A stretch of DNA of 20,271 nucleotides from Anaerolineales bacterium (GTDB taxonomy: Bacteria > Chloroflexota > Anaerolineae > Anaerolineales > Villigracilaceae). The notes beneath the pieces are model-generated. The model did no database searches, had not been told where the DNA came from, and worked only from the letters and a program-made list of their open reading frames with translations. The DNA lies in the NCBI GenBank assembly GCA_016928525.1, contig JAFGKO010000221.1, positions 1 to 20,271 of the forward strand. Direction: 5' to 3'. Positions 1 to 16,419 of the stretch are shown here, in pieces; the first letter of the stretch is position 1, and each line of letters opens with the position of its first letter. The translations under genes were made by a program, and so were the position numbers.

Positions 1-629
1 ACTGCGATGAAGGGGGAAAGATGGTAAGAATCGTTAGAAAGACCTTCCAGCAGGTCGAGTTCATCTTTTGCGCTGGTGGCGTCCAGGTAAATGGCAGTCA
101 GGGTGGTGGGTGGGATGCGCTTGATCCAGGCGTAGTTGACCATGTGCAGCCCCTTCCAGACGATTTCGATGCCGCCGCCGAATTCCCCGAAGGACGAGCC
201 GTTGCCAACAATGCGGCCGATCTCGCCATTGGGACCTCGCCCGCAGCAGTTGACGCCTGATCCAGCCGTGACATTGACGCCGATCCCGTGCGTGGTGCCC
301 GCCAGCAGACCATTGACACCGTCGTTGACCACGTCCACGGGGCAGGGCAAACCCAGCCTGGCGATGGCTTCGAGATGCGGTTCCCGGTCTGACGGGAAGT
401 CGTAGCCCGCCACGCCGAAGCCTCCACCAGCAATCTGGGCAGCGGTCACGTTTGCCATCTGGCTGGCTGCCTCGAAGGATTGCTGCAAGACATTTGCCAA
501 CCCATCGTATCCGACGACCTGGTGGTTGCCACTCCCAGCTTTTCCGAAGCCGATGCAGCAACCAGTTTCATCCGCAATCAAGGCGTGGGTTTTGGATGAA
601 CCAACGTCGATGCCGAGAAAATATTTCAT
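1..629 (-). CDS. BadF/BadG-type N-acetylglucosamine kinase-like protein (C-terminus beyond the window)
   Basis: The minus-strand frame is open from an ATG at 629 to the window edge, giving 209 codons of the N-terminal part. It is an ASKHA-fold kinase. Visible motifs are the phosphate-1 loop GIDVGSSKT (residues 6-14), VNDGVNGLLAG (101-111, with the probable catalytic Asp103) and the phosphate-2 region TAGSGVNCCGR (121-131). This layout fits the BadF/BadG/BcrA/BcrD group that includes eukaryotic-type GlcNAc kinases and bacterial glucosamine kinases. The expected reaction is ATP-dependent 6-phosphorylation of an amino sugar in the cytoplasm. Its ATG lies 6 nt after the stop of the upstream transporter gene, so it is the distal member of the operon. 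The neighbouring ChbG-type deacetylase and GH4 glycosidase support an amino-sugar substrate, but specificity cannot be read from half a protein. The related benzoyl-CoA-reductase activators are unlikely in this context. Confidence 0.85.
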   Translation of the reverse strand, partial: MKYFLGIDVGSSKTHALIADETGCCIGFGKAGSGNHQVVGYDGLANVLQQSFEAASQMANVTAAQIAGGGFGVAGYDFPSDREPHLEAIARLGLPCPVDVVNDGVNGLLAGTTHGIGVNVTAGSGVNCCGRGPNGEIGRIVGNGSSFGEFGGGIEIVWKGLHMVNYAWIKRIPPTTLTAIYLDATSAKDELDLLEGLSNDSYHLSPFIA

Positions 630-635
630 ATCAGG

Positions 636-1994
636 CTACCCCTCGCCTCTGGCTTCCTTCTTTGCTTCTAATGTTTCACGGATATCCGCCAGTTTTTTGC
701 TGTGTAAGGGATATAGCCAGAGTAGGAAGATCGCCAGCAGGAAGCCGATAGTGGTGGGAACGGTCAGGAAGATGCGAAAGCCCAGATCAACGGTAGCAGG
801 CTGAACGTCAAGAAGCGTATCGTAGCCAAAGGCGGGCATGACCAGGCCAAACACGCTCGAGACCAGCAGTCCACTTAAGGTGATGAGAAATCCACTCATC
901 CCGAAATACATCCCCGCCCGTTGATGGCCGGTCTTGACTTCGTCCTCATCTACCACTTCGGTCATAATCACATCGCCAATCAGCACCAATCCACCTAGAC
1001 CGACGCCAAGCACGACGGCGGCGGCGTAGGTGAAGGCCAGACTGGGTGAAAAACCCATCGGTACGATGCCAAGGATCATAACGGCGTTGGCGAACATGAG
1101 CGTGCGGCGGCTGTCAAGTTTGTTGGCGACCCAATTGCGCCAGGGATAGAGCGTGAGCATGGCCACCAGGAAGGCGATGCCGAGGATAACGGTGGCGAGA
1201 CCTTCGTCGACTTTCAAGCTGTATTTCAGGTAGAACAGTATGCCCGTCTGGAGCGTGCCCGTGGCAAAGAATCGCATGGCCTGGGCGCCAGCCGCAGTGA
1301 GATAACTCCGATTGAGGAAGGTGGCTTTGAGCGCTGCCCCGAAGGGAAAGCTGGTATCAGTTTTCAAATCTTTCCGCTCAAACAGAAACGGGTAGCCCAC
1401 GTAAATGGCGATGACTGAAATGACCGAGAGCAAAATCGCCATGCCTGACCAGCCCAGCATGCTCGAAAGTAAGGGTGGCAAGGCAGCACCTAAAACTAAC
1501 GCGATCGTCTGGAAGATGTTCATCTTGGCGGCTACATCCGTCCGCTCACGATAGGTATCAAACATTTCGGGTAGCAAGCCGTAATAGCCTGTGGCGATGG
1601 CGGTGTACAACCCTTCCCAGATGACGATCATCGTGCCGAAATAAACCAGCAGGGCTACAGGATTATCCTTGCCGTCGAAGGGGGCGGTGAAAATGAGCGA
1701 AAAAGCGACCGCATACGGCAGCCCGCCGAAGAGCACATATGGGATGCGTCGTCCCCAGCGGGAGCGGGTGCGATCGGAGAGATACCCTAGCGCGGGATTG
1801 TTGAGCGCATTGTAGATGGTGTAAAAGAACCAGAACGTAGAGTACCAGGTCACGGGCAGGTTCTTCACGTCCACAATGTAGAAGGCGATCACGCCCGCAA
1901 TCGCTTCGGCAATCGTCGCCACACCCAGGCTGACGAGCGAGTACATGATTCGGGTTTTGGTGCTGGTGGCAAACTCAGATGTAATGGCGGCCAT
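636..1994 (-). CDS. GPH-family MFS sugar transporter with both cation-site aspartates replaced
   Basis: A 452-residue protein with about 12 hydrophobic segments. The GPH/MelB-family signature DRTRSRWGRRIPY lies at residues 74-86, in the loop after helix 2. Family members move glycosides, pentosides or hexuronides with Na+ or H+. In MelB the helix-2 pattern WDAINDP carries the two cation-binding aspartates. Here the aligned pattern is YNALNNP (61-67), so both are Asn (N62, N66), while the second GPH protein of this operon keeps both. The start follows an AAAGGA ribosome site, and the gene is 32 nt from the upstream deacetylase. Membership of the family is clear; substrate is inferred from context only (a disaccharide or amino sugar). 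The Asn pair suggests transport that is not cation-coupled or is coupled differently. Confidence 0.88.
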   Translation of the reverse strand: MAAITSEFATSTKTRIMYSLVSLGVATIAEAIAGVIAFYIVDVKNLPVTWYSTFWFFYTIYNALNNPALGYLSDRTRSRWGRRIPYVLFGGLPYAVAFSLIFTAPFDGKDNPVALLVYFGTMIVIWEGLYTAIATGYYGLLPEMFDTYRERTDVAAKMNIFQTIALVLGAALPPLLSSMLGWSGMAILLSVISVIAIYVGYPFLFERKDLKTDTSFPFGAALKATFLNRSYLTAAGAQAMRFFATGTLQTGILFYLKYSLKVDEGLATVILGIAFLVAMLTLYPWRNWVANKLDSRRTLMFANAVMILGIVPMGFSPSLAFTYAAAVVLGVGLGGLVLIGDVIMTEVVDEDEVKTGHQRAGMYFGMSGFLITLSGLLVSSVFGLVMPAFGYDTLLDVQPATVDLGFRIFLTVPTTIGFLLAIFLLWLYPLHSKKLADIRETLEAKKEARGEG

Positions 1995-2026: not shown

Positions 2027-2920
2027 TTATTGATTTCTCAGCGCATCTCGGATGGCGCGATAACCAATCAACTGAATGCCGGAGTCTTTGATGAAATTTT
2101 TCAGTTCATTGCTCATAAAGGCATTGTAATTTGCGACCCGCGCTTTCCAATCGGGGCAGATAGCACGTAATTCAGGCGTGTCAATGGACGGATGGAATAG
2201 AAAGTGCGTAATACCAACAGGCACTTCACTCAACAACTTTTTGGCAACGCCAATATGATCATCGTCGTGCTCCAATGGCATAGCGAAAAGCCCATCGAGC
2301 ATGGGTAGCCCTTGATTTTCAAGTTGATCCAGAATTGGTGTATACATCGCCAGTGCTTGCTCATCAATGCCCATCATATCGAATCCTTTCGCGCTGGCGC
2401 GCGGCAACATGTTGGGGATCAACCGACTCATCCCTGCTTGCAAATAGAGCTGCACAAATTTTGGATTGATGATCGTTCCCATATGCGAATCGATGTGTGT
2501 GACATCAACCCCAGCCGCGAGGGCGCGCTCGACCTGGAGATTCAGTTCTACTTTGACCGCTTCAACATTCGCAGACTCGACGGCAGCTTCTACATATTGA
2601 TGGAAAAATCCCTGCGCATCGATCAAGCCCGAGGCTGGATCTCGTGTCGAGACAGGTTCCCAGCGATAGGTATCCCATTCGGCGTTAAGCGTGGCGTGCA
2701 CCCCCAGGTCCATTTGGGGATTTTGACGCGCCATTTCCGCCGCGGCGAGAAACCATGGGCATGGAACCATTACCGTGCCAGATGTTATTGTGCCAAACTC
2801 CCATAGGTCTTTGTAAGCCTGCACGGAGGCATGGCACATGCCAACGTCATCAACGTGGATGATAACCAGACGGTCGGTTTCGGAATAGCCTAGTTTTTTG
2901 AGAAGGCGATTTGGGGCCAT
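2027..2920 (-). CDS. ChbG/YdjC-family carbohydrate deacetylase
   Basis: 297 residues when started at the ATG at 2920, which follows an AAAGGA ribosome site. An in-frame upstream start at 2962 would add 14 residues encoded by a repeat-like spacer and is disfavoured. Family motifs are visible: HVDDVG (22-27) with the Asp pair D24/D25, LGVHATL (72-78) with H75, and THIDSHMG (141-148) giving H142, D144 and H146. These fit the metal-binding and catalytic residues of ChbG/HpnK-type enzymes, which remove N-acetyl groups from chitooligosaccharides or hopanoid-linked GlcNAc. No signal peptide is seen, so the substrate is cytoplasmic. In E. coli, ChbG acts before a GH4 enzyme (ChbF) on chitobiose phosphate. 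Here a GH4 gene is the next gene upstream, which supports the same partnership. Confidence 0.85.
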   Translation of the reverse strand: MAPNRLLKKLGYSETDRLVIIHVDDVGMCHASVQAYKDLWEFGTITSGTVMVPCPWFLAAAEMARQNPQMDLGVHATLNAEWDTYRWEPVSTRDPASGLIDAQGFFHQYVEAAVESANVEAVKVELNLQVERALAAGVDVTHIDSHMGTIINPKFVQLYLQAGMSRLIPNMLPRASAKGFDMMGIDEQALAMYTPILDQLENQGLPMLDGLFAMPLEHDDDHIGVAKKLLSEVPVGITHFLFHPSIDTPELRAICPDWKARVANYNAFMSNELKNFIKDSGIQLIGYRAIRDALRNQ

Positions 2921-3087
2921 TACTTTTCCTTTGTATGAATTCGTCCTGAGCGGAGCGACCATAGGGAGCGCAGTCGAAGGGCGCTTCGACTACAGAACTT
3001 CGCTGCGCTTCGTTCTTCCGCTCACCTGTGCCGCACCATACCATCCGTGCCGGATGGCACGGGCAGGTGCAGGCGCAGCGAGGAAGA
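2921..3087. repeat. Palindrome-rich spacer, repeat-like
   Basis: A 167-bp spacer between the GH4 and ChbG genes, the longest gap in the operon. It contains a perfect 8-bp hairpin (2972-2979 with 2984-2991, loop GGCG), two mutually exclusive 7-bp hairpins (3041-3047 with 3051-3057, and 3045-3051 with 3056-3062) and an enclosing CACCTG/CAGGTG pair (3023-3028 with 3064-3069). The motifs GTCCTGAGCGGAGCGAC and CAGTCGAAGGGCG resemble a dispersed palindromic sequence I associate with Chloroflexota and other environmental genomes. That resemblance is from memory and unverified. No T-run follows, so it is not a classical terminator; RNA processing or transcript stabilisation is possible. Confidence 0.6.
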
Positions 3088-4389
3088 TCATTTGAAAAAC
3101 TGCGGCAGCCACTGTTTATTTGTCTCCAGCATATCATCCAGCACTTCCTGTACCTTATCGGCGCTCGGCCCGAGCGGATGCGCCAAGAGCGCCTGATACG
3201 CGGCGTTCCTATCTCCGTATACGGCGGCCTGAACAGTGAGTATCTCATACATCTTGACCGAGGCAATCAGTCCAAAGCAGGCTAGGGGCAGCGGGTCCGC
3301 AGGAAGCGGGTGGATGCCAGACCTGTCCACTTTGGCCGGCATTTCCAACACCCAGTCCACGGGCCAATCTTTTACGGCTCCATTATTTCGTACGTTGACA
3401 GTATGGATTTGCCCGAGATCGTTGTAGTGCGAGTCGATTAGTTGGGTAGCCAGGGTCGAGTAATAAGCGCCACCCCGCTTCATCAAGTTATCAGGAGGCT
3501 CGGTCAGGGCGGAATCGGCATACTCCCGCAGTAAATCCTTCTCGATCTCCATAACTTCTTCGGCACGGGAAGGCGGCCATTTCTCTTGAGATTTGAGCTT
3601 TTTATCGGTGTAGTAGAAATATTGGAGATAGTAGTTGGGCATCATGCCGAGCGATTCGAGCGTGCGGATGTCCCATTCAGGTTCTTCTTCCTGTTTCGTC
3701 ATCTCGACGAAAGCGGGAAAGATTTGCGGCCACATCTCTTCGCCATCGACCGTGAAGCCATAGTGCCAAGTGAGATGGTTGAGACCGAGCGTTTTCAGCA
3801 CGGCGCGCTCGTCAGCAATATAACCTTGTGAAGGTTCGAAAACCTTCGCAAGGTTTTCGAGAATTTCCATTTTGGTGGTGATGCCCACGTTGCAAACCCC
3901 CACCGCTGGGATATCTGCCGCATGGCGGTTGAGCGCCTCGGTGACCAGCCCGGCCGGATTGGTGAAATTCGCCAGCAATGCGCCCGGGGCAACTTCACGG
4001 ATGTCTTTGGCGATATCCAGAATAACAGGGATGGTGCGTAATGCCTTGGCCATGCCGCCCACTCCCGTTGTCTCCTGCCCAATCAGGCCGTGACGTCTAC
4101 CCAGGTACTCGTCCCCACGACGGGCGGGCATCATCCCGATCCGAAATTGGGTGATGATATAGGATGCCTCCGCAATCGCCTCCCGCTGGTCCAGCGAAAG
4201 CACCACTTTGAATGGTTCGCCTTTAGCCTTGACCATACGCTGTGCAAATCCGCCGACGATGTCAAGGCGCTCTTTGTCGATGTCCATCAGCCATAGTTCT
4301 TTGAGCGGCAGGCGGTCGGTCCTGGCAAGAAAACCGTTGACCAGTTCTGGGGTGTAGGTCGAGCCGCCGCCGATGACTGTGATTTTCAT
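3088..4389 (-). CDS. GH4 NAD+- and metal-dependent glycosidase (6-phospho-beta-glucosidase/diacetylchitobiase type)
   Basis: 433 residues, the usual GH4 length. The N-terminus VIGGGSTYTPELV (5-17) is the NAD-binding Rossmann turn with the GH4 STYTPE signature. Further marks are NPAG (144-147), GVCNVGI (164-170) with the metal-ligand Cys166, and GLNHLTW (202-208) with the metal-ligand His205. GH4 enzymes cleave by transient NAD+-linked oxidation at C3 and need a divalent metal. The CN motif and STYTPE turn place it nearer to 6-phospho-beta-glucosidases and ChbF than to alpha-galactosidase MelA. It overlaps the upstream ceramidase-like gene by 4 nt (ATGA), so the two are translationally coupled. 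Because no PTS is present, either a kinase in the operon makes a phosphorylated substrate or this member acts on an unphosphorylated glycoside; the sequence alone does not decide this. Confidence 0.88.
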   Translation of the reverse strand: MKITVIGGGSTYTPELVNGFLARTDRLPLKELWLMDIDKERLDIVGGFAQRMVKAKGEPFKVVLSLDQREAIAEASYIITQFRIGMMPARRGDEYLGRRHGLIGQETTGVGGMAKALRTIPVILDIAKDIREVAPGALLANFTNPAGLVTEALNRHAADIPAVGVCNVGITTKMEILENLAKVFEPSQGYIADERAVLKTLGLNHLTWHYGFTVDGEEMWPQIFPAFVEMTKQEEEPEWDIRTLESLGMMPNYYLQYFYYTDKKLKSQEKWPPSRAEEVMEIEKDLLREYADSALTEPPDNLMKRGGAYYSTLATQLIDSHYNDLGQIHTVNVRNNGAVKDWPVDWVLEMPAKVDRSGIHPLPADPLPLACFGLIASVKMYEILTVQAAVYGDRNAAYQALLAHPLGPSADKVQEVLDDMLETNKQWLPQFFK

Positions 4390-5744
4390 TTTGACATCAT
4401 CTCCTTCTCCTTATTCCACAGGTCCTTCAGCACCTTACTCGTCGCTTCAAGCGCAATTTGCTCGCAGCCTGCCTGCAACCTGCCGGGGTACCGGTAGGCC
4501 AGCGGCGCTATATCCACTTCATAACCGCCCTCCTCGTGTGACTCCTCCGTGTGTAGGTAACTGATGCAGCCATCGCTCACACTGGCGAACAACGTATGAG
4601 CGGCGGGCGAGGCAGCCTTGACCTTCATCCCAATTTCGGTAAACGTTTCTGCCCCAAATGTAACCAGCGCTAAGTCACCGATGCGCACAGCGTTGATCCG
4701 CATTGGCACTGACCAGAACCCGTCCTTTGCTTCGATGACCGATTTCCACGGATAGCGCTGGTTGAGCAGGATGTCTGCAAATACGGCCATAAAACCCGGC
4801 ATCTTGGCAAGTGATAACAAGGGCTTACCATAATTTTTGGGCGGACGAGATGTTATGGCACGTGTCTCGGTAGGGAACCAGGCCTCGACACGCTCGATGT
4901 TGAGCGGCATCCCTCGCATCTCATCACCCCCCGAGCCTGCTGCCGCCAAAACGGCCTCTGCCACGCTCAGGCCTTGTTCTGTTACTTTCTCAAACGCGCG
5001 CGCGTCCTCCCAATACATATCGGGGTTGATGTTCGCCGCTGCTCCCTGGAGGAAGAGAGCCATTCCACCGAGCTCTTGTTCGACTTTGTCGCGCATCACG
5101 CCGATCCAATCGGCGGAGACCAGCAGGTTATCCGGCCCAAGCACCGTGCCGTGACAGGCGTAATTGACAATGGTCGCGATCCGCGTTCCCTCCTTATCCC
5201 CTTTGCGTCGACCTACGTCAGTCAAAACGCTGACCACCTGCACGGACTTATCCCGCGCGCCCTCGGTGTTGCGACCGATCTCCATGTGTCCATCGGGCAT
5301 TTTCTCGCGGCGGTTGATGCCCACATCTGCTTGGCTGTGCGAATATTCCAAACGCGCAGGCAAAAGATTCTCTTGCGCCTCTTTTACCGCTTCACCGATG
5401 CGATCCACTAGCAAGTTGATGTAATCCCGATTCTTACGCGGCGATTTTTCGTCCGCGTAAGCGATGGGGCCGGAATGGGTATGAGAACAGCACAACAGTA
5501 CCTCGGTCGGGGCGAGGCGAGCACGGACTCTGTCCACGATGAACTCGTTGATGGTCAGGATGTCCAGTGCGACGATAGCGATGCGCGTCGTCCCATCCGT
5601 GAGAACGAGAGCGGTGGCGGTCAGGTCGTCGTGAATACCGATATTGCCCTTCGAACGGTCGCCATAGCCGATGAGGAAGATGCCCTTTGGCGGGCTGATT
5701 ATTTGGCGGGCAATGCCAGCGAGAAGAGAGGGTTCGATGGTCAT
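4386..5744 (-). CDS. Neutral/alkaline ceramidase-fold hydrolase, cytoplasmic, atypical active site
   Basis: 452 residues matching the neutral/alkaline non-lysosomal ceramidase family. SHTHSGP (87-93) gives the first zinc-ligand region (H88/H90), NYACHGT (194-200) gives H198, and E366 or E370 with Y408 are candidates for the remaining ligands. In true ceramidases a GDxSPN segment holds the nucleophilic Ser. The aligned stretch here is AANINPD (236-242), with Asn in place of the Ser. There is no signal peptide, although characterised ceramidases are secreted or membrane proteins. It is therefore probably not a ceramidase but a cytoplasmic amide or ester hydrolase on a metabolite. It is coupled to the GH4 gene by a 4-nt overlap and lies 62 nt after the second GPH symporter gene. 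The start is supported by a GGGGAGAAAA ribosome site. Family assignment is firm; function is unknown. Confidence 0.8.
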   Translation of the reverse strand: MTIEPSLLAGIARQIISPPKGIFLIGYGDRSKGNIGIHDDLTATALVLTDGTTRIAIVALDILTINEFIVDRVRARLAPTEVLLCCSHTHSGPIAYADEKSPRKNRDYINLLVDRIGEAVKEAQENLLPARLEYSHSQADVGINRREKMPDGHMEIGRNTEGARDKSVQVVSVLTDVGRRKGDKEGTRIATIVNYACHGTVLGPDNLLVSADWIGVMRDKVEQELGGMALFLQGAAANINPDMYWEDARAFEKVTEQGLSVAEAVLAAAGSGGDEMRGMPLNIERVEAWFPTETRAITSRPPKNYGKPLLSLAKMPGFMAVFADILLNQRYPWKSVIEAKDGFWSVPMRINAVRIGDLALVTFGAETFTEIGMKVKAASPAAHTLFASVSDGCISYLHTEESHEEGGYEVDIAPLAYRYPGRLQAGCEQIALEATSKVLKDLWNKEKEMMSK

Positions 5745-5806
5745 GTTTTCTCCCCCCAGTTTACGTTTTGCGTTTCAAGGTATCCGCACATCGTAAAAGG
5801 TACCAT

Positions 5807-7129
5807 TCAATTCATCTCCAGGTTTTTCCTGGTCTCTTCCAGCGTGTCACCGATGCGATATTTTTGGAAGAGGAAGAGTCCAACAAAGACGAATACGGCC
5901 ATCACAGGGAACGCCAGCCGTACGCCAAGCGGATTTGCCTGGGTGTAGCCAAAATTCTCCAGCAGTAGGGGCAGGATCAGGGTTCCGACTGACGTGCCGA
6001 GACCGATGGCGAAGGAAAACGTTCCGTAGTAGATAGCCTCGCGGCGACGTTGTGTCAGCATTTCGTCGTAGTCAACCACATTGCCCATCATGGCATAGAT
6101 CAGGATCAGGTAACCGCCGAGGGCTGTCCCGATCAACGCCACGAAGATGTAGGCCTGTAGGGAGATGGTGGTCGAGTCCATTGCGCCGATGAGAAAGCCG
6201 AGCGCGAAGATGATGCCAAGCAGGAGCATGCTGGCATTGAGTAAGGCGCGCTGGCTGTGCTTGCGATTGAGCCATGTCCAGACCGGACCGGTGAGAGCGA
6301 TAAAGATGATCAGCACACCTTGGTAGATGCCCACGTCGCCTTCGGTCTGGCGCAGGACCAGTGTAACGAAATAGGGGAAGTTCGCCAGCACCATCTGGTA
6401 GGCGATGTGAACAGAGAGCGTGGAAAAAAACAGGATGAGGAACTGCTTGTTTTGGAAGGTGGCTTTGATACCTTCCATCGCAGCCATCGGCTCACCGAGC
6501 GGGCGGTCGGTTTCGCGCAGGCCGAGCAGGGTGACATAGATGGTGAAGACACCCACCCCACCCACGACCGCGCCCATTGCCACCGGCCCGATACTGCTGA
6601 AAAGGGGCGCGGCAACCAGCGACCCGACTAGCACGCCGACGATCCCGAAGAAACCCTTCCAGTAACTTAAACCGAGACGGGCGTGAGTCTCTGGCGCCAT
6701 TTCGGGCATGGAGGCGTCATAGGGAATGCCCACCAGGCTGTAACTGGTATGATAGATGAGAATGATGACTATGAAATAGATACCGTTAAGAAGATAATTG
6801 GTGAGACTCGGCGGAGTCCACAACAGGATAGCACCCAACAGGATGAAGGGCGAAGCAAAGATCAGGAAGGGGCGGCGGCGTCCCCAGCGCGAGCGCAGGG
6901 TATCAGAGTAATGCCCGATGAACGGGTCGATGGCAGCATCCCAGAAGGTGGCGATGAGCAGGAGGATGCCCATTGTTATTGCAGGCATGTAGGTGGGACG
7001 GCCCGAATCGGGTGGCGGGGCATAGAAGTACAACAGCCAGGTGCTGATGGTGATGGCGAGGATGTTCAGCCCTGCCGAGGCGCTGGAATAGAGAGCGACA
7101 CGCCAGAAGGGGAGTTTATTGTTGTCCAT
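5807..7129 (-). CDS. GPH-family sugar:cation symporter
   Basis: 440 residues, polytopic. The GPH signature SDTLRSRWGRRRPF spans residues 75-88. The preceding helix-2 motif FWDAAIDPFIG (62-72) retains both acidic positions (D64, D68) that bind Na+ or H+ in MelB. It should be a cation-coupled importer of a glycoside, pentoside or hexuronide. The gene begins 17 nt after the PIG-L deacetylase stop, with a ribosome site AAGGAGAAAA, and is followed by the ceramidase-like gene, so its substrate is probably the compound those hydrolases act on. Having two GPH proteins in one operon is unusual; the motif differences suggest that the two copies do different jobs. Confidence 0.88.
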   Translation of the reverse strand: MDNNKLPFWRVALYSSASAGLNILAITISTWLLYFYAPPPDSGRPTYMPAITMGILLLIATFWDAAIDPFIGHYSDTLRSRWGRRRPFLIFASPFILLGAILLWTPPSLTNYLLNGIYFIVIILIYHTSYSLVGIPYDASMPEMAPETHARLGLSYWKGFFGIVGVLVGSLVAAPLFSSIGPVAMGAVVGGVGVFTIYVTLLGLRETDRPLGEPMAAMEGIKATFQNKQFLILFFSTLSVHIAYQMVLANFPYFVTLVLRQTEGDVGIYQGVLIIFIALTGPVWTWLNRKHSQRALLNASMLLLGIIFALGFLIGAMDSTTISLQAYIFVALIGTALGGYLILIYAMMGNVVDYDEMLTQRRREAIYYGTFSFAIGLGTSVGTLILPLLLENFGYTQANPLGVRLAFPVMAVFVFVGLFLFQKYRIGDTLEETRKNLEMN

Positions 7130-7146
7130 TTTTTCTCCTTAGCCTT

Positions 7147-7893
7147 TCAGAATCCGCAATGCAGTGCTTTGGGGTGTAACACCTTGAGCGGTTCGCCACG
7201 TTCGAATTCCAGGCCTGCGGCCACCTGGCGAGATTTCATGTCCAATCCCATGACCAACATATCCATGTCATCGGGTTCGAATTGAGCCTGATAACAACGA
7301 ACGGCGGCGATTTTGTCATCCCAGGTCGAGGTGACGTCTGGGACAGTGTTTGGCTCACGGGTGTAGTAGAAGACGATGCCGTTGATGTCATGCCCCTCGT
7401 AGGCAGAATCAATTGCTGGGTCGGAAGAAGCGATTTTTGTCAGACCTGCGAACATGACCGCTTCAGTCGTCACCAACCCTGTCTGGATGTGGTCGCGATG
7501 CGCTTCGTAGGTTAACCAGGGATCAGGAGTGAAAACGAAGTCGGGTTTGATTTGGCGGACGTACTTGAGGACGTCACTGCGCACTTCAAAATAATCATAT
7601 TTCCCCGCATCAGGATACCCAAGCCAGTATTGCTCTTTGACACCGATGATTTCTCCAGCGGCGAACTGGTCCCGTTTGAGCGCTTCGGCGGCTGTTTCAG
7701 GCGAGAGTGAATTGTCCACCACCCCCATCAGGTCGTTGGTGACGGTGAGATAGAAAATTTCCGCGCCGTTTTGCTGGAGTTGTTTGAGAATCCCCGCAGC
7801 GGCGATGTCGTTGTCATCGTAATGGGGTTGGACGCACAAAACCCGCCTGGCGGAGAAGATATCGGGAGTGGGGAGGATGGTTTCGATGGTCAT
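7147..7893 (-). CDS. PIG-L/LmbE-family N-acetyl deacetylase
   Basis: 248 residues from the ATG at 7893, which has a GAAAGGAA ribosome site. A longer reading from 7950 would run through a terminator-like hairpin and is rejected. The family's first motif, normally PHPDD, appears as PHYDDND (23-29), keeping H24 and D27 but with Tyr at the usual Pro. The second motif HRDH (132-135) supplies the other zinc ligand. The family removes acetyl groups from GlcNAc-containing substrates such as GlcNAc-PI, mycothiol and bacillithiol precursors, and diacetylchitobiose. The neighbours (two GPH transporters, GH4, ChbG) point to a sugar-catabolic role rather than thiol synthesis. There is no signal peptide. 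It is the second predicted sugar deacetylase in the operon, unrelated in fold to ChbG. Confidence 0.85.
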   Translation of the reverse strand: MTIETILPTPDIFSARRVLCVQPHYDDNDIAAAGILKQLQQNGAEIFYLTVTNDLMGVVDNSLSPETAAEALKRDQFAAGEIIGVKEQYWLGYPDAGKYDYFEVRSDVLKYVRQIKPDFVFTPDPWLTYEAHRDHIQTGLVTTEAVMFAGLTKIASSDPAIDSAYEGHDINGIVFYYTREPNTVPDVTSTWDDKIAAVRCYQAQFEPDDMDMLVMGLDMKSRQVAAGLEFERGEPLKVLHPKALHCGF

Positions 7894-7929
7894 AAATTCC
7901 TTTCGATAAAGGCTAAAGGCGGAAGGAAA

Positions 7930-7954
7930 AAGGATGAATGGGGATTTCATCCTT
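7930..7954 (-). terminator. Intrinsic terminator or attenuator after the oxidoreductase gene
   Basis: A perfect 9-bp inverted repeat (7930-7938 with 7946-7954, 7-nt loop). Read on the minus strand the stem runs straight into TTTCC, with five T in a row counting the end of the stem. It lies between the Gfo/Idh stop (7968) and the PIG-L start (7893). It splits the operon into a promoter-proximal ABC half and a distal deacetylase/GPH half. It probably gives partial rather than complete termination, since no new promoter is obvious downstream. Confidence 0.6.
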
Positions 7955-7967
7955 CATAACTCATCTT

Positions 7968-8972
7968 TCACCTTTTCAATTCTACAACCTTGCCCGTTTT
8001 TGCGCTCTCATAGGATGCATCGACAACTTTCATATTCACCAATCCTTCCGCCCCGCCAGGGACAGGCATTCTGTCCGTTTTAATGCACTCAATAAAATAA
8101 GCCATCTGGGCGTTATACATGGACTGTGGGCAATGCTCGGTACGAGGGAATTCAAAACCCGCATCGATCACATCCAGTTTTTCTTCTTTCATGTTGGGCA
8201 GTTCTAACCTGGTCGGGAATAGTTGACCGAAACCCTGCGTGCCGTACAATTGTGTGGCTGCTTCTGGTCCGTCCGAGTGTGGCTGCCACCAACCGGATTC
8301 GATGTAAGATGTCGCTCCGTTATCCCAACTAACAATAATTAGGCCGGTGTCATCTACATCGAAATCTGTGTAGTAGGTGCCAATCTTGGCGTATACCGAA
8401 ACGGGCTGCGGGTCACCAAGCAGAAACCTGGCCGTATCCAGCGCATGAATGCCCATGTCTGCCAACGCGCCTCCGCCTGCCAGTACTTTTTGTGTAAACC
8501 AACCCGAGGGTCCCCAGTGGGTATGCACGCCGTAGCCTTTCGTGCGGATGATTTTGCCCAACTTGTCGGATTGCTCCTTGAGCCAGAGCACATCCTTGTC
8601 AAAGCGCCAGCAGTGCGCCACCATCAGCGTCGCCCCAGATTTCTGACTGGCGGCGATCATCGTCTCAGCTTCAGCAGCATTCATCGCCATCGGCTTTTCG
8701 ACCATCACATGTACGCCCCGCTCCAGCGCCGCAATCGCCTGTGGAGCATGTAAAAAGTTCGGTGTACAAATCACCAACGCATCCACACTGACATCGTCCA
8801 GTAACTGCTCTACCGATGTATAACAGCACTTCACGCCGAACTTCCCTGCAAAGGTCTTCGACTTGTCCGAGAACTTCTCGACCACGGCGGCAAGTTCCAC
8901 ATCGGGCTGGCTCAATGCCGCTTGGGCATGGATGTTGGCGATATAGCCTGCACCACTAAACACAATTTTCAT
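7968..8972 (-). CDS. Gfo/Idh/MocA-family NAD(P)-dependent oxidoreductase
   Basis: 334 residues. It has an N-terminal Rossmann fold with GAGYIA (7-12), the family EKP motif (VEKPMAMNAAEAE, roughly residues 91-103) whose Lys is in the active site, and a C-terminal alpha/beta domain with GGGALADMGIHALD, which contains the conserved Asp/His pair. Members oxidise or reduce hydroxyl groups of free or glycosylated sugars and inositols, and some cleave glycosides through a keto intermediate. The start overlaps the ProX-like gene stop by 4 nt (ATGA). In this operon a 3-keto-glycoside or sugar-epimer step is plausible, but the exact substrate cannot be read from the sequence. Confidence 0.88.
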   Translation of the reverse strand: MKIVFSGAGYIANIHAQAALSQPDVELAAVVEKFSDKSKTFAGKFGVKCCYTSVEQLLDDVSVDALVICTPNFLHAPQAIAALERGVHVMVEKPMAMNAAEAETMIAASQKSGATLMVAHCWRFDKDVLWLKEQSDKLGKIIRTKGYGVHTHWGPSGWFTQKVLAGGGALADMGIHALDTARFLLGDPQPVSVYAKIGTYYTDFDVDDTGLIIVSWDNGATSYIESGWWQPHSDGPEAATQLYGTQGFGQLFPTRLELPNMKEEKLDVIDAGFEFPRTEHCPQSMYNAQMAYFIECIKTDRMPVPGGAEGLVNMKVVDASYESAKTGKVVELKR

Positions 8973-9478
8973 ATCTGCTCTCCCGCCTCCCTGCTAAAAA
9001 AGTGCGGCACATACCCGGTCACCGCAAAGAAACGCTCCAACTGCGCCTTTGACAGTACCAGCGTGGCCGTATTGACCAGCGGGTGACACAGGAATTGGTC
9101 CTCGCCCCAAACCTCCTCATCGATCCACAACTTTATCTTATGTTCCGTATCGTTTACCAGCCCCATCATCGTCACTGAGCCGTGGCCTACGCCAAGCAGG
9201 CGCATTAGGTCAGTTTCCGAGCCGAAGCGCAAGTGTGAGACACCCAGTTGCGCCTTCAAATCGTCCAGCCGGACGGTTTTTTCGCAATCCGTCACCACCA
9301 AAAAGTAATGCCGCTTCTTCTTGTCGCATAGGAACAAGTTTTTGGTGCTTACAGCAGGCATATCTGGACGATGCAACGCTGCCTCCGCGCAGGTAAACAC
9401 AGCGGGATGTTCGATGCGCTGATAGGTGAAGCGATTGGTATCCAGAAAATCGAGAAATTCCTGTTCTGATACGATCAT
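8969..9478 (-). CDS. Prolyl-tRNA editing protein ProX/YbaK-like (aminoacyl-tRNA deacylase)
   Basis: 169 residues with a single YbaK/EbsC/ProX-type editing domain. Visible family marks are EHPAVFTCAEA near the N-terminus, TKNLFLCDKKKRHYFLVV with the conserved Lys that positions the substrate, LRFGSETDL, and LGVGHGSVTMMGLVND with the GSVT loop. These proteins hydrolyse mischarged Ala- or Cys-tRNAPro in trans in the cytoplasm. The gene is out of keeping with its sugar-metabolism neighbours, but it is firmly inside the operon. It overlaps the next gene by 4 nt, and its ATG lies 1 nt after a 16-codon mini-ORF. The length matches stand-alone ProX (about 165-170 residues). Confidence 0.87.
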   Translation of the reverse strand: MIVSEQEFLDFLDTNRFTYQRIEHPAVFTCAEAALHRPDMPAVSTKNLFLCDKKKRHYFLVVTDCEKTVRLDDLKAQLGVSHLRFGSETDLMRLLGVGHGSVTMMGLVNDTEHKIKLWIDEEVWGEDQFLCHPLVNTATLVLSKAQLERFFAVTGYVPHFFSREAGEQI

Positions 9479-9531: not shown

Positions 9532-10431
9532 CTAATTATCCATGGCCAGCGCAATCGCTCCCAGCACGCCCGAGCGGTTGCCCAAAGCGGGAGGAACAAT
9601 GTAATCTTCGATATTGTCGGTAAGCAATTCATGATTCAGATAGTTATTGAGAAGCTGAAGTACTTTCCGCCTTGTTTTTTCCAACAAGAATCCTTTCTGC
9701 ATGACACCACCACTGATTACGATCTTCTTGGGAGCAAAAGTGAAAATGTAGTTTGCAAGCGCAAATGCAAGGTAACCTGCCTCGAGCTCCCAGAATGGGT
9801 CACCGTTTGCAATGATTTCTGCGCGTTTCCCCATGCGTGCCTGGATGGCCGGGCCGGAAGCCAACCCTTCGAAACAATCGCCGTGGTAGGGACAGGCTTC
9901 TCGAAAGGGATCCAGTTCCAGGTCATGCGGGATGCGGATGTGTCCCATTTCGAGGCTGACGAGACCGCGAAATGGTTTGCCTCCCACGATGAATCCGCCC
10001 CCAATCCCCGTTCCAATCGTGAGATAAAGCGATGGATCGAGTCCTTTGCTGGCGCCCCATTTGAATTCGCCCATGGCTGCTGCGGCGACGTCCATATCCA
10101 TTGCAATAGGGACTTTCAACTGTTCACGCAACATGCCAAGGATGTTCGTGTTTGCCCAGCCGGGCTTGGGCGTGGTTGTAATGAAGCCGTAAGTGGGTGA
10201 ATTGGGGTCAATATCAACAGGGCCAAAGGAGCCAAGGCCGATGCCATGCAGTTGTCTTAGATATGGGGCACAGAAATCGCATACCCGCTGGATGGTTTCT
10301 GCGGGCGTAGTGGTCGGAAAGCGAATCTCGTCCACGATAGTTTCGGGGTCGCTACCCACCGCGCAGACAAATTTCGTCCCGCCGCCTTCGATACCGCCGT
10401 ATAACAACGCCTCGTTTGTTTGAGAAGGCAT
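9532..10431 (-). CDS. ROK-family sugar kinase (fructokinase/mannokinase type)
   Basis: 299 residues. The N-terminal phosphate loop is YGGIEGGGTKFVCAVG (11-26). The ROK zinc motif is complete: H164 in EMGHI, then C180, H183 and C186 in CPYHGDC, followed by GLASGPAIQ (189-197). The first residues and the CPYHGDC form match Bacillus-type fructokinases (YdhR/GmuE) more than glucokinases. The catalytic segment reads MDMDVAAAAMGE (111-122), where the common form is DVNAAALGE: the Asp is kept (D114) but the usual Asn is Ala. It should phosphorylate a hexose released by the GH1 enzyme encoded immediately upstream (gap 28 nt). The ribosome site is AAAGGAT before the ATG. Confidence 0.87.
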   Translation of the reverse strand: MPSQTNEALLYGGIEGGGTKFVCAVGSDPETIVDEIRFPTTTPAETIQRVCDFCAPYLRQLHGIGLGSFGPVDIDPNSPTYGFITTTPKPGWANTNILGMLREQLKVPIAMDMDVAAAAMGEFKWGASKGLDPSLYLTIGTGIGGGFIVGGKPFRGLVSLEMGHIRIPHDLELDPFREACPYHGDCFEGLASGPAIQARMGKRAEIIANGDPFWELEAGYLAFALANYIFTFAPKKIVISGGVMQKGFLLEKTRRKVLQLLNNYLNHELLTDNIEDYIVPPALGNRSGVLGAIALAMDN

Positions 10432-10459: not shown

Positions 10460-11785
<1,326 letters not shown>

Positions 11786-12922
11786 TTATTCCTTTAAGCC
11801 GGTCAGTTTGATGCCCTGGATGAAGGTTTTCTGGGCAAAGAAGAAAGCGATCACGATCGGAACAGTGAAGACGGTCGCGGCTGCCATCAATTGGTTCCAG
11901 ACCATGGTGCGTTGACTCTGGAAATCCTGCAAGCCAAGCGCCATAGTGAAGTTTTTCGGGCTGGTCAGGAAGAGCAACGGACCAGTGAAATCATTCCAGG
12001 CCCACAGGAAGGTAAAGACGGTGACTGTGGCAAGTACGGGCACGGACAGGGGGAGTACGATGCGGGTGAAGATCTGCCATTCGGATGCCCCGTCAACGCG
12101 AGCTGCATCGCACATCTCTTCGGGGATGGTACGGAAGAACTGTCGTAGCAGGAACACGTCATAGGCGTTGGCAAAGAAAGTAGGGATGATGAGCGGCAGG
12201 AAGGTGTTGCCCCAGCCGAGAAAGTCGTTGAAGAACAGGTAAATTGGGATCATGGTGACCTGGAACGGCAGCATCATAGTCGCCAGGATGATGACAAACA
12301 GGATATCGCGGCCTGGGAATTTTAAGCGTGCAAAAGCGTAAGCAACCGGCGTGTTGGAAAGGAGCGTGCCAACGATCGAGAAAAAGGCGATGACCAGGCT
12401 GTTCTTAAAATAGACCCAGAAGCTGGCCCCGATGCCCGGCCGGCTACCCCGTTCCATAGCATCTGGAAAATTTTGCCAGTTGAATCTGACTTCCATGATA
12501 GGTTCAGCGATTTTGATTGTGCCCTGTTGGATTTCATATTCCATTGGTTGACCGGGATTTGCCGGGTCGATAAACGTACCGACTCCCTCCACGATTTTGA
12601 CAGCTGCTAACTGCTTCACGCCACTCTCTGTCTGGACATTATAGAGTGGGAGTTGCTCGCCATTTACATCTACACGGACATTATCATACGGTAACCAACG
12701 CGGTGGCGTGTGGAACACATCCTGGTTGGATTTAAAGGCTGTTAACAACATCCACAAGAACGGGATCAGGAAAAATAGTCCAATAAAGTTGATGAGAGCA
12801 TGGCTGAATAGAGACTTGAAAAAAATTCTAACTTTGCGAGCCCGCAAACGTTTGCGGTATTCTTCGTCAGTTCCAGGGGAAACTTGAAGGCCAGGATAGG
12901 GGGTAGGATAATTTGTTGCCAT
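11786..12922 (-). CDS. ABC sugar permease, MalG/UgpE type (CUT1), with an extra extracytoplasmic insertion
   Basis: 378 residues, about 90-100 longer than typical MalG-type CUT1 permeases. A first membrane helix (about residues 43-62) is followed by a hydrophilic, beta-rich stretch (about 80-145) before the usual NWxNF element and the five-helix core. The EAA loop that docks the ATPase is EEMCDAARVDGASEWQIF. The C-terminus ends in the usual QGIKLTGLKE form. It pairs with the other permease and the lipoprotein to import an oligosaccharide. It begins 4 nt after the preceding permease stop with only a weak ribosome site, consistent with coupling. The insertion faces outward and could contact the binding protein. 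Confidence 0.9.
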   Translation of the reverse strand: MATNYPTPYPGLQVSPGTDEEYRKRLRARKVRIFFKSLFSHALINFIGLFFLIPFLWMLLTAFKSNQDVFHTPPRWLPYDNVRVDVNGEQLPLYNVQTESGVKQLAAVKIVEGVGTFIDPANPGQPMEYEIQQGTIKIAEPIMEVRFNWQNFPDAMERGSRPGIGASFWVYFKNSLVIAFFSIVGTLLSNTPVAYAFARLKFPGRDILFVIILATMMLPFQVTMIPIYLFFNDFLGWGNTFLPLIIPTFFANAYDVFLLRQFFRTIPEEMCDAARVDGASEWQIFTRIVLPLSVPVLATVTVFTFLWAWNDFTGPLLFLTSPKNFTMALGLQDFQSQRTMVWNQLMAAATVFTVPIVIAFFFAQKTFIQGIKLTGLKE

Positions 12923-12926
12923 GCCA

Positions 12927-13871
12927 TCACCCTGCGTAATAGGTAAAGCGCTCGCTGACTTTCAGTAGAAGAAGCGTGCAGATCAAAATAACAATGAACA
13001 ACACCCAGGCCATCGCAGATGCATATCCCATTTTGAGCCACAGAAAACCATTCTGGTACAGATAGACGCTGTAAAAGAGTGTTGAATTTAATGGGTAACC
13101 AAGGCTTTGGGTGCCACGAAAAACATAAGCCTGCGCAAAGTACTGGAACATGGCGATCACGCCTGTGATCAAGTTGAAGAGAGTGATTGGTGAGATCATG
13201 GGAATCGTTACATGCCACAGACGTTGCCACCAGCTCGCTCCGTCCAGTTCGGCGGCTTCGAGCAAACTGACGGGCACATCCTGCAAGCCGGAGAGATATA
13301 TAACGATCGTGCCGCCCATGCCCCACATTCCCAACAAGATCAGCCCAGGTTTGGACCAGGTCGGATTGCTCATCCAATTTGGGCCCTGGATCCCGATATA
13401 CCCCAACACCGTATTAAGGATACCGGTTTGTGGGTTGAGTATCCAAAGCCAGAGAATGGTGCTTGCCACGGTGGGGACGATGGAAGGCAGGAAGTAGATC
13501 ACACGGTAGATGGATTGACCGCGCACTTTCAGGTTAAGCAACACAGCGCAAAAGAAAGATGTCAGTAATGTCAATGGAACGCCGATGGCAACCATATAGA
13601 GCGTGTTGGAAAGCGACTTCCAGAAATTATCGTCTGTTAACAGATTGGCATAATTCTGCAACCCAATCCATTCATTTGGCTGCCTGGGATGATAAATGGT
13701 GAAGCTATAAAAGAACGAAGCCACCATCGGATAAAGAGTGAAAACCAGGAAACCGATTGTCCAGGGGAGCAGGAACAGCATCCCGGTCCTGAAATTGACG
13801 CGGTCGCGATGACCCCATTTCGGCAACCGGGGAGGCCAGGTCCATTTTCTCTTGATGTGAAGTTCTTGCAT
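12927..13871 (-). CDS. ABC sugar permease, MalF/UgpA type (CUT1)
   Basis: 314 residues with about six membrane helices. The N-terminus carries the usual basic cytoplasmic leader, then LLPWTIGFLVFTLYPMVASF as first helix and the family element GLQNYANLL. The EAA loop is VSLLEAAELDGASWWQRLWHVTIP, seen near residues 212-236. It forms the heterodimer with the MalG-type permease. No ATPase gene is present in the operon, which is common for CUT1 systems sharing an MsiK/UgpC-type ATPase encoded elsewhere. The start has a good AAGGAG ribosome site 74 nt after the binding-protein stop, across a terminator-like hairpin. Confidence 0.92.
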   Translation of the reverse strand: MQELHIKRKWTWPPRLPKWGHRDRVNFRTGMLFLLPWTIGFLVFTLYPMVASFFYSFTIYHPRQPNEWIGLQNYANLLTDDNFWKSLSNTLYMVAIGVPLTLLTSFFCAVLLNLKVRGQSIYRVIYFLPSIVPTVASTILWLWILNPQTGILNTVLGYIGIQGPNWMSNPTWSKPGLILLGMWGMGGTIVIYLSGLQDVPVSLLEAAELDGASWWQRLWHVTIPMISPITLFNLITGVIAMFQYFAQAYVFRGTQSLGYPLNSTLFYSVYLYQNGFLWLKMGYASAMAWVLFIVILICTLLLLKVSERFTYYAG

Positions 13872-13945: not shown

Positions 13946-15247
13946 CTACTTGAGAGCCTCTTGCAATTTTGGTTCAAACTCTGCCTGGAGTTCATCCAAC
14001 AGTGGTTTCGGATCAGCGCCAGTATGTACGACTTGCTCGTAAACTAAGCTATAGGCGTCATTGAGTTCCAATGAGATTGGAGTGGTGATGATATAGGTTG
14101 CGTTCGGGCTGGACATCAGGTCTGTGAAGACCTTGAACTTGGGATTCTCCGTGAAACACGGGTCCTTAGCAGCGGTTTTGCTGGTAGGTAGGTTGGCGTT
14201 GAAGCAGAACTCCTCGGCCACAATTTCCGGCGACATCATCCAGGCCAACAGTTTGGCAGAAGCATCTTTATTCTTTGCACCGGCCGGGATGACAGCAACT
14301 GTACCCTGAACAACAGCTGTGTTTGCCTGTTCCGGATGGTCGGCCGGGGGCGGGAAGGGCGCCACACCATAGCTGGCTTCAGGCTTGAATGCGCTGATAA
14401 AGTTCGGACCGGTCATCCATTCACCGTCCACGTACATGGCCATCTTGCCAGTATAGAAGGGATAGTCAGCTGACATATACGCGTCAGCCCAACCGGATGA
14501 CAACGCCAGAACTTCATCTGCACCGTACTTGGTGTAGAACTGCTGCTGCCAGAGCAGGGAATCGATCATGGGCTGGCTGTTGACAGTTAGTTGGGTGCCG
14601 TCTTCGCTGTACCAGAAACCACCGAACATACGAACGTAAAGATCGCTATGATCCCAACCCTGATCCGGCAGGAAACCAACTTGCGTAAGCTTGCCATCTG
14701 CGTCGCGCAGTGTCATTTTGTCGGCAAATTCGGCTAGATCTTCCATTGTTTTGGGCGGAGTTTCGGGATCCAGCCCGGCAGCCTCGAACATATCCTTGTT
14801 CCAGAACAGGGCATACATGTCTGTTCCCCATGGCAAGCATAGGATTTGATCGCCAGATTTGCATTGCTCCAGTGGCGCTTCGAAGAAGTCATTCAGGTCG
14901 ATGCCGCCGGTTTTGATAATGTCCGACAGTTCTGTCACCAATCCTTCCTTAGCATAGGATTTGACCAGATCGCCGCCGGAGAGCACCAAGACGTCGGGTG
15001 GTTCTGAGCCCGTCAGCGAAGGAAGGATTTTGTCTTCCTCAAGCGGCGCAGTGACCTCAACCTTTATGCCCGATTCAGCGGTGTATTTATCGAACAGTTC
15101 CTGGATCTGCTGTGGGTTGTCGCCCCACTGGATCCACACGCGTAGCAGTTCTGGCTCTTTGGCGGCTGGCTGTCCGCCACCACAGGCAGCCAACAGCATC
15201 GAAGCCAGGACAAAAATAGAAATCAGGATGTAAAGTTTTTTGTGCAT
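13946..15247 (-). CDS. ABC sugar-binding lipoprotein (CUT1 extracellular solute-binding protein)
   Basis: 433 residues from the ATG at 15247, chosen because of a strong GGAGGAG ribosome site directly before it; an upstream in-frame start at 15271 has none. The N-terminus is a lipoprotein signal: KK, a hydrophobic core, and the lipobox LLAAC with C22, followed by a GGG linker. The mature part has a typical type-2 periplasmic-binding fold: LRVWIQWGDNPQQIQELFDK at the start, PDVLVLSGGDLVKSYAKEG, LPWGTDMYALFWNKDMFEAAGLD and DGEWMTG motifs. It captures an oligosaccharide outside the membrane for the two permeases. The order LacI, binding protein, permeases is standard for locally regulated CUT1 operons. 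The sugar cannot be read from the sequence; the GH1 neighbour suggests a beta-glucoside. Confidence 0.92.
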   Translation of the reverse strand: MHKKLYILISIFVLASMLLAACGGGQPAAKEPELLRVWIQWGDNPQQIQELFDKYTAESGIKVEVTAPLEEDKILPSLTGSEPPDVLVLSGGDLVKSYAKEGLVTELSDIIKTGGIDLNDFFEAPLEQCKSGDQILCLPWGTDMYALFWNKDMFEAAGLDPETPPKTMEDLAEFADKMTLRDADGKLTQVGFLPDQGWDHSDLYVRMFGGFWYSEDGTQLTVNSQPMIDSLLWQQQFYTKYGADEVLALSSGWADAYMSADYPFYTGKMAMYVDGEWMTGPNFISAFKPEASYGVAPFPPPADHPEQANTAVVQGTVAVIPAGAKNKDASAKLLAWMMSPEIVAEEFCFNANLPTSKTAAKDPCFTENPKFKVFTDLMSSPNATYIITTPISLELNDAYSLVYEQVVHTGADPKPLLDELQAEFEPKLQEALK

Positions 15248-15283
15248 GTTCTCCTCCGAAAAAAGATCCATTTGGATTTGCGT

Positions 15284-15325: not shown

Positions 15326-16387
15326 CTAAACGAACTTGCTCTGAAGCAATCCCTGCGATTGGGCAAGTGGACAGCCACAGGATTCGCGGATGACAATCTC
15401 GGTCTGCAACAGAACAAAGGCCTCTGCCTGTTGACCGCGAATCAGGCGCACCAATTGCCGGACACCTTCCCTGCCAACCTGCTCGATCGGGGCACGGACC
15501 GTAGTCAAAGCTGGTCGCAGATAACGCGCGATGGGAAGGTCGTCAAATCCGACCACCGCTACATCTTGAGGAACGCGTTTCCCTGCATGAATTAATGCCG
15601 AAATTACCCCGGCTGCTGTGTCATCGTCACCACCGAAAACAGCATCAAATTCGACACCTTCGATCAACAATTCCTGTAGGGCTACATGGGCTTCTTCTTC
15701 ATTAAACCCACCCATTGCAACTAGCGAAGGGTCAAAAGGTATCCCGTTTGCTTGCAAGGCTTCGCGGTAGCCGCGCTCGCGCCATTCGGAATCTTCGTTG
15801 CCTTCTGGGCCGCGCAAAAAAATAATCCGGCGGCGGTTGTGGGCTTGAATGAGATGTTCCACAATCATCTGCGCGCCGGATTTGTTCTCGATGGTGACAG
15901 AAGGGATGTTCAGAGGGGAGGGGGGTGATTGATATAAAAGGACAGTGGGAAAGTTGAGCGAATACAAACGGCTGAGCTCTTTTTTGTCAATGCTTTGGGT
16001 GAAAACGATCAAACCATCGGTATTGTGTTCCCCTAGCGGGCGGTGCGGTACAGGTTTAGAAGCATGTGGGATGTGGCTGGTAGCGTGGATCAGCAGGTCG
16101 TAACCGGCGGCTTGCGCTTCCGCTTCGATGCCTCGCAGGAGCGGGGAAAAGAAAGCGCCCCCAATCTCAGGCAGAAGCAACCCTAATGTTTCCGTGCGAC
16201 GACTGGCCAGCACACGAGCTGCCGCGCGCGGAACAAAGGCCAGTTCCTTGATGGCTTCTTGAACTCGTAGTGCTGTCTCGCTTGCAACAGGTGTTGTCCC
16301 ATTGATCACGCGACTGACCGTAGCAATCGAAACCCCCGCCTTTTCGGCAACATCTGAAATTGTGGGTTGCTGTTTCTTGGAAAGCAT
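15326..16387 (-). CDS. LacI-family transcriptional repressor, local regulator of the sugar operon
   Basis: 353 residues from the ATG at 16387. An in-frame start at 16429 would lie inside the promoter and operator and is rejected. The N-terminal HTH is ISDVAEKAGVSIATVSRVI (10-28). The hinge helix region reads AAARVLASRRTETLG, then comes a periplasmic-binding-like sensor domain with PSVTIENKSGAQMIVEHL and VAVVGFDDLPIARYLRPALT. It should bind the inverted repeat 4 nt upstream of its own start and release it when a sugar or sugar phosphate is bound. As first gene of the operon it represses itself together with everything downstream. No good Shine-Dalgarno precedes the ATG, because that space is taken by the operator, so repressor synthesis may be kept low. 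Confidence 0.92.
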   Translation of the reverse strand: MLSKKQQPTISDVAEKAGVSIATVSRVINGTTPVASETALRVQEAIKELAFVPRAAARVLASRRTETLGLLLPEIGGAFFSPLLRGIEAEAQAAGYDLLIHATSHIPHASKPVPHRPLGEHNTDGLIVFTQSIDKKELSRLYSLNFPTVLLYQSPPSPLNIPSVTIENKSGAQMIVEHLIQAHNRRRIIFLRGPEGNEDSEWRERGYREALQANGIPFDPSLVAMGGFNEEEAHVALQELLIEGVEFDAVFGGDDDTAAGVISALIHAGKRVPQDVAVVGFDDLPIARYLRPALTTVRAPIEQVGREGVRQLVRLIRGQQAEAFVLLQTEIVIRESCGCPLAQSQGLLQSKFV

Positions 16388-16390
16388 TGG

Positions 16391-16419
16391 ATGTAAGCGT
16401 TTTCTGAAAGCGCTTACAT
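16391..16419. promoter_or_regulatory. LacI-family operator (paired half-sites)
   Basis: A perfect 9-bp inverted repeat, ATGTAAGCG (16391-16399) and CGCTTACAT (16411-16419), separated by 11 bp. Inside it, 16405-16418 reads TGAAAGCGCTTACA, a full match to the LacI/CcpA-type consensus TGWAARCGYTWNCA. 16392-16405 (TGTAAGCGTTTTCT) matches all but the last base. The two 14-bp sites share one base, so two repressor dimers could not easily bind in the same mode at once. The element begins right after the -10 box and ends 4 nt before the repressor ATG, so bound repressor would cover the transcription start. Confidence 0.9.

Follow-up and report, generated by a model that had tools for sequence, protein, structure and literature searches.

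The window, a 20,271-nucleotide stretch of DNA from an Anaerolineales bacterium (contig JAFGKO010000221.1) analysed at its full length, carries on its minus strand a single run of 15 genes, which begins with a LacI-family regulator and ends with a BadF-type sugar kinase. Three of these genes, encoding a PIG-L deacetylase, a ceramidase-fold protein named here CER1 and a ChbG/YdjC deacetylase, are the main subject of this study. A preliminary description had reported them as co-directional and set among two GPH symporters, a GH4 enzyme and a GlcNAc-kinase-like gene; Pfam confirmed the families, and the coordinates proved correct. Thirteen of the 14 intergenic gaps in the run measure -4 to 74 bp; only GH4 and ChbG stand farther apart, at 167 bp. 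From the first gene to the last, the run consists of:

15326..16387, minus strand: LacI-family regulator, first gene (Pfam LacI 1.7e-16, Peripla_BP_3 2.3e-34)
13946..15271, minus strand: ABC sugar-binding protein (Pfam SBP_bac_1 2.2e-35)
12927..13871, minus strand: ABC permease 1 (Pfam BPD_transp_1 1e-18)
11786..12922, minus strand: ABC permease 2 (Pfam BPD_transp_1 2.1e-25, residues 192-371 of 378; about 190 residues precede the permease domain)
10460..11782, minus strand: GH1 beta-glycosidase (Pfam 9.6e-169)
9532..10431, minus strand: ROK-family sugar kinase (Pfam 3.6e-57)
8969..9478, minus strand: YbaK-type aminoacyl-tRNA editing domain protein (Pfam tRNA_edit 4.8e-25; kept in the related loci L003 and L004)
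7968..8972, minus strand: Gfo/Idh/MocA dehydrogenase (Pfam 1.5e-29; kept in 5 of 8 close loci)
7147..7893, minus strand: PIG-L (CE14) deacetylase (Pfam 4.3e-20; PDB 3wl4 2e-45, 8bgo 3.7e-44)
5807..7129, minus strand: GPH symporter 2, GPH2 (Pfam MFS_2 4.3e-67)
4386..5744, minus strand: ceramidase-fold zinc hydrolase CER1, predicted cytoplasmic (Pfam Ceramidase_alk 2.1e-18)
3088..4389, minus strand: GH4 enzyme (Pfam 4.6e-57, N and C domains; PDB 1s6y 4.9e-98; 4-bp overlap with the CER1 stop)
2027..2920, minus strand: ChbG/YdjC deacetylase (Pfam YdjC 3.6e-48; PDB 8jqe 1e-41)
636..1994, minus strand: GPH symporter 1, GPH1 (Pfam MFS_2 1.5e-55; kept in 7 of 8 close loci)
3..629, minus strand: BadF/NagK-type sugar kinase, 3' end cut at the window edge (Pfam BadF/BcrA 1.3e-15)

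The starts at 2920 (ChbG) and 7893 (PIG-L) were preferred over those of the longest open reading frames (ORFs; 2027-2962 and 7147-7950), since an AAGGA-type site, read by eye, lies just upstream of each. For LacI an inner ATG of the longest ORF (15326-16429) was picked by eye. Ahead of it lies a promoter-like site (16448-16420, 10/12 match with TG), found in a scan whose total was near chance (15 sites against 12.5 expected). No signal peptide was visible by eye in PIG-L, CER1 or ChbG, in agreement with the preliminary description. Domains of the phosphotransferase system (PTS) were not found among the 19 window proteins scanned, nor were Rfam matches at gathering scores or tRNA genes in the window. 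The longest gap of the operon (2921-3087, between GH4 and ChbG) contains a 14-mer motif of the type GAGCGCAGTCGAAG, which has one match in the window and none in the related loci L001-L016.

Enzymes and transporters encoded by the operon

The PIG-L protein carries PHYDD and AHRDH, corresponding to the HxDD motif and second histidine of its family (motif table excerpted from PMC4101496), and scores 73 bits for the domain against a cut-off of 28.2. Its nearest solved structures are four chains of the archaeal diacetylchitobiose deacetylase (Dac) type at 150-158 bits, two of them so named and two labelled 'uncharacterized', with the next at 52 bits; among solved structures it is thus nearer to Dac than to BshB or MshB. 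ChbG has the metal motifs of the YdjC family (HVDDVG and HIDSH) and a YdjC domain score of 165 bits (cut-off 29.7). It misses the NCBIfam equivalog for chitin disaccharide deacetylase (58 bits, cut-off 227) and does not reach its nearest equivalog, carbohydrate deacetylase (157 bits, cut-off 400).

According to an excerpt of PMC9402603, ChbG converts chitobiose, the disaccharide of N-acetylglucosamine (GlcNAc), to GlcNAc-glucosamine (GlcNAc-GlcN), and the part of PMC9779004 at hand describes the Pyrococcus PIG-L enzyme as acting at the non-reducing end only and accepting GlcNAc-GlcN. Because opposite ends are attacked and the Pyrococcus enzyme accepts this product, ChbG and PIG-L together could simply finish chitobiose. 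The argument that more deacetylases than chitobiose needs imply an unusual substrate is therefore not supported for these two, and the three deacylases were dropped as proof of a triply acylated sugar, two of them being known kinds of chitobiose deacetylase with opposite ends. The third, ceramidase-fold family does point to an undescribed step.

CER1, of 452 residues, contains the motifs HTHSGP and CHGT and shares the fold of the neutral ceramidase catalytic domain: residues 3-447 of its model match residues 1-491 of the 2zws chain. That chain has 630 residues in the library, and nothing is left over in the CER1 model for a C-terminal domain. Residues H88, H198, E366 and Y396 align with the zinc ligands of 2zws, which we take to be the two His, Glu and Tyr of neutral ceramidase, and are kept in 45, 45, 44 and 44 of the 45 aligned proteins. 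At the serine position of GDVSPN, a neutral ceramidase motif, CER1 has Asn240; this column holds Asn in 32 and Ser in three of the 45. The neutral ceramidase equivalog of NCBIfam is not reached (44.6 bits, cut-off 1200). Close relatives of CER1 carry the label 'neutral ceramidase' in their source annotation, and proteins with the domain occur in records of many bacterial groups. Judged from sequence and modelled fold, CER1 is probably a zinc amidase stripped of ceramide features, which would N-deacylate an amino sugar or aminocyclitol.

The GH4 enzyme is nearest to 6-phospho-beta-glucosidases among solved structures, a kinship that fits a kinase replacing the PTS. The usual GH4 motif is CNVP; here and in L001, L003, L004 and L008 it reads CNVG. 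L003 encodes a full-length relative of the cut kinase, and this protein matches the MurNAc/GlcNAc kinase 8zo3 (1.8e-19; MurNAc, N-acetylmuramic acid). The Gfo/Idh protein is nearest to aldose-aldose oxidoreductase (131 bits), followed by glycoside dehydrogenases (DgpA, 111-112 bits), and its relatives adjoin a DegT aminotransferase gene in L147, L152 and L153.

Occurrence of the genes in other genomes

Scanning genome contigs yielded 53 loci, of which L001-L008 are the closest (62-79% identity; L007 is a 3.3-kb fragment). Flanks of up to 10 kb on each side were examined, some contigs being shorter; genes were taken as the longest open frames, and selected neighbours were put through family and structure scans. 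The eight closest loci contain GPH2 (8), GPH1 (7), PIG-L (5), GH4 (5), Gfo/Idh (5), the kinase (4) and ChbG (3). The PIG-L genes near CER1 are of the chitobiose-deacetylase type in four loci and divergent in one. As the same neighbours recur in other genomes, their company in the window is not due to chance. GH1 and ROK, absent from these flanks, were rejected as members of the cassette.

GPH2 is the constant neighbour of CER1, adjacent in all eight close loci (as a fragment in L007). In a control which counted related loci as independent, and in which L003 entered via CER2, a second ceramidase-fold gene, and L007 via its fragment, GPH2 occupied 6/13 adjacent and 2/77 other positions (p 7e-5).

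All three families were found together only in the window and in L001. The preliminary description had named sporadic adjacency as grounds for refutation, and for the trio the result leans that way; the pairs are not random, PIG-L, ChbG and GH4 recurring in 5/8, 3/8 and 5/8 loci. ChbG lies on a separate contig in genomes G003 (49% identity) and G006 (46%), and the PIG-L proteins of G002 show only 24-27% identity. In G336 the genes are distributed over three contigs, one with ChbG, GH4 and GPH1, one with CER1, a divergent PIG-L and Gfo/Idh, and one with CER2, kinase, a different GH4, DegT and a SIS gene. With 14 PIG-L places in eight genomes (29.2 Mb in total), about 1% would be expected within 10 kb of a random gene; PIG-L was found near CER1 in 7/14 regions with CER1 of at least 250 bits, not all of them independent. 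Among 396 genomes of the class, CER1 is rare, reaching at least 300 bits in five (G003, G005, G166, G336 and G382). Dac-type PIG-L occurs in four, and two genomes hold both (p 0.0008).

A general link of PIG-L, ChbG or GH4 with the ceramidase domain was rejected: none was adjacent in the 45 distant loci L009-L053, where only PIG-L appeared, in the flanks of L011. In that Spirochaetales record, the gene at L011:10016-12016 joins a ceramidase-fold domain to a C-terminal part which, on weak NCBIfam hits, resembles acetyltransferases; it is flanked by a GPH symporter gene on one side and by genes for a GATase1-like protein, GH84 and PIG-L on the other. The fusion was a single case in a check of 297 genomes of its class, where nine further hits matched the acetyltransferase-like part only. 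At a second site of G003, L092:8533-14581, ABC permeases are followed by a single run of three ceramidase-fold genes together with a divergent PIG-L. Genes of the ADP-ribosylglycohydrolase family adjoin a ceramidase-fold gene at L013:11405-12226 and PIG-L at L118:9282-9914.

A second ceramidase-fold gene and a DegT aminotransferase

In L003, L004, L006 and L008, GPH1 or the kinase is followed by CER2 and then by a DegT aminotransferase gene. CER2 shares 22-24% identity with CER1 (three CER2 aligned) and also lies at most 2.6 kb from DegT in L111, L112 and L113. This pair was outside the view of the preliminary description, since in the relatives that have it the pair stands beyond the kinase or GPH1, and the window breaks off within the kinase gene. 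The nearest proteins to this DegT are L-glutamine:2-deoxy-scyllo-inosose aminotransferases (6e-76, up to 259 bits versus 190 for the next group).

This type of DegT was found in 27/396 genomes, and 24 regions were examined, some ending early. GH4 and kinase accompany it in ten (L118, L145, L149, L150, L151, L152, L154, L158, L163 and L164) and a Gfo/Idh scoring 450 bits or higher is present in five (L118, L145, L147, L152 and L153). In L112 and L145 the gene after DegT encodes a SIS protein, which in L112 matches glucosamine-6-phosphate (GlcN-6-P) deaminases. Deacylase genes are few, namely ceramidase-fold genes in L111, L112 and L113, PIG-L in L111 and L118, and ChbG in L113 and L157; the three families are thus accessory to a GH4-kinase-DegT core.

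Among 91 distinct ceramidase-fold ORFs, many on fragments without visible neighbours, 16 loci have DegT on the same strand within 150 bp, counted in stop-to-stop frames (L003, L004, L006, L008, L029, L035, L038, L043, L044, L047, L049, L070, L081, L082, L084 and L113). L015 and L016, with an equally close DegT on the opposite strand, were left out. Among the titles of these records are Lentisphaerae, Lentisphaeria, Latescibacterota, Hydrogenedentota, Gemmatimonadetes and PVC group. With related loci counted as independent, DegT filled 6/44 adjacent slots and 12/422 others in the 45 distant loci (p 0.004). A literature search on the pairing gave nothing relevant. The pairing is the best lead on the undescribed step, and it is clear for CER2, not for CER1.

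Beside other CER2-type genes, a GH35/GlmA-like glycosidase gene follows directly within L116:2986-7156, and a gene for 359 residues follows, likewise directly, at L120:10907-11983 (= L050:11206-12282). The latter matches PF03417, acyl-CoA:6-aminopenicillanic acid acyltransferase, another amide-handling family. Elsewhere in the window, a short ORF for a helix-turn-helix and NB-ARC-like ATPase protein (18373-19071, plus strand) precedes a TIR-domain ORF (19097-19675, plus strand); the two may be components or relics of a STAND-type system.

Possible route and comparison with known systems

The E. coli chb operon consists of the ChbBCA PTS, the GH4 enzyme ChbF and ChbG. The window resembles it in that one operon for sugars of the chitobiose type combines a ChbG-family deacetylase with a GH4 phospho-glycosidase, but the window has ABC and GPH importers and a sugar kinase in place of any PTS domain in the scanned proteins, and adds PIG-L and ceramidase-fold genes. 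With the archaeal Dac-GlmA chitin pathway of Thermococcus and Pyrococcus it shares the Dac-like PIG-L and, in its relative L112, a SIS GlcN-6-P-deaminase-like gene, whereas GH4 and kinase stand where the archaea use an exo-glucosaminidase. CER1 is like the neutral ceramidases of Pseudomonas aeruginosa and human in catalytic-domain fold and zinc ligands, and differs in its short length, its lack of a C-terminal domain or visible signal peptide, and Asn240. The DegT of the relatives resembles aminotransferases of aminoglycoside synthesis, and BtrD of that pathway is likewise a PIG-L deacetylase, according to an excerpt of PMC4101496; the importers, glycosidase and kinase that surround the genes here suggest breakdown instead.

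We tentatively propose, with a little less than even confidence, that the operon serves cytoplasmic, PTS-independent catabolism of a chitobiose-type N-acetylated amino-sugar disaccharide, with N-deacylation by CER1 or CER2. The proposal builds on the genes observed and their order, on folds and motifs, and on neighbours that recur; substrate and activities are deduced from these. The ABC and GPH systems would import the disaccharide, ChbG would remove the reducing-end and PIG-L the non-reducing-end acetyl group, and the BadF kinase would phosphorylate the sugar in place of a PTS. GH4 enzymes work by NAD- and metal-dependent oxidation-elimination, and this one would cleave the phosphorylated disaccharide in that way; a SIS protein like those encoded after DegT in the two related operons could complete the route. 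CER1 would take an N-acyl group off an amino sugar or aminocyclitol imported by GPH2.

Where CER2 is present, it would free an amine, DegT would take the amine off and Gfo/Idh would reduce the resulting ketone. MosB and IolG apply the same aminotransferase-dehydrogenase logic to inositol in the synthetic direction, as the excerpted PMC6668481 describes. It is conceivable, if doubtful, that ceramidase-fold proteins without lipid features supply the opening half of a deacylate-then-transaminate module not described before, in which DegT would remove the freed amine and Gfo/Idh would close the cycle. Its substrates may be amino sugars or aminocyclitols bearing an N-acyl group, such as a 2,3-diamino sugar or an inosamine glycoside.

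Several observations weigh against the proposed route. The window stops inside the kinase gene, short of the place where some relatives have CER2 and DegT. A ceramidase-fold gene is present in only 3/24 DegT regions, so the DegT step needs none. Only G336 of the five CER1 genomes has both CER2 at 1e-40 and this DegT at 1e-130, which indicates that CER1 works without them in most and that the DegT link is that of CER2. CER2 and DegT are common to three genomes (p 0.04), and the sharing of CER1 and PIG-L falls to p = 0.03 without G003, the centre of the sample, chosen for CER1. L009 and L010, relatives of CER1 at 55-56%, show no cassette gene, and to our knowledge no activity is known for any of these ceramidase-fold proteins.

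A plain chitobiose operon, in which ChbG and PIG-L finish the sugar and CER1 is an O-deacetylase or other hydrolase dispensable for the route, seems rather unlikely to us. Two chitobiose deacetylase families already cover both acetyl groups, as the excerpts of PMC9779004 and PMC9402603 indicate, and the rarity of CER1 in the class agrees with this. G003 and G005 hold CER1 and PIG-L without CER2 or this DegT at the cut-offs used; they rule out that CER1 always comes with DegT, and they strengthen the plain chitobiose explanation at the expense of both the N-deacylating route and the module. However, GPH2 adjoins CER1 in 11/14 regions, which suggests that CER1 has a substrate of its own, and the CER2-DegT pairing is left unexplained.

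Use of peptidoglycan or N-glycan fragments, with GlcNAc-MurNAc or the N-glycan chitobiose core as the disaccharide, is improbable. It would suit the kinase relative nearest to MurNAc/GlcNAc kinase, the GH38 alpha-mannosidase genes near CER1-type genes (L003:741-3911 and L010:1646-4777, of different phyla by title) and the peptidase genes which L002 and L005 have close to the cassette, but these peptidase and mannosidase genes are inconstant, the SIS protein encoded in L112 is a match to GlcN-6-P deaminases, and no MurNAc-6-phosphate etherase appeared among the annotated proteins, no search having been aimed at it. Least probable is that scavenging genes have simply come together, with three hydrolases that have unrelated substrates and only their regulation in common. 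The trio is confined to the window and 1/8 close loci, and elsewhere PIG-L or ChbG is lacking or lies on a different contig, but PIG-L lies near CER1 above background.

The findings point to a PTS-free chitobiose route in Anaerolineae. If the deacylate-then-transaminate module is real, the operon in the window would represent a variant in which two chitobiose-type deacetylases, a kinase and GH4 open the disaccharide beforehand. The ceramidase-fold group is probably misnamed, and the sugar symporters, amino-sugar deacetylases and DegT aminotransferases that often accompany it give it a testable function.

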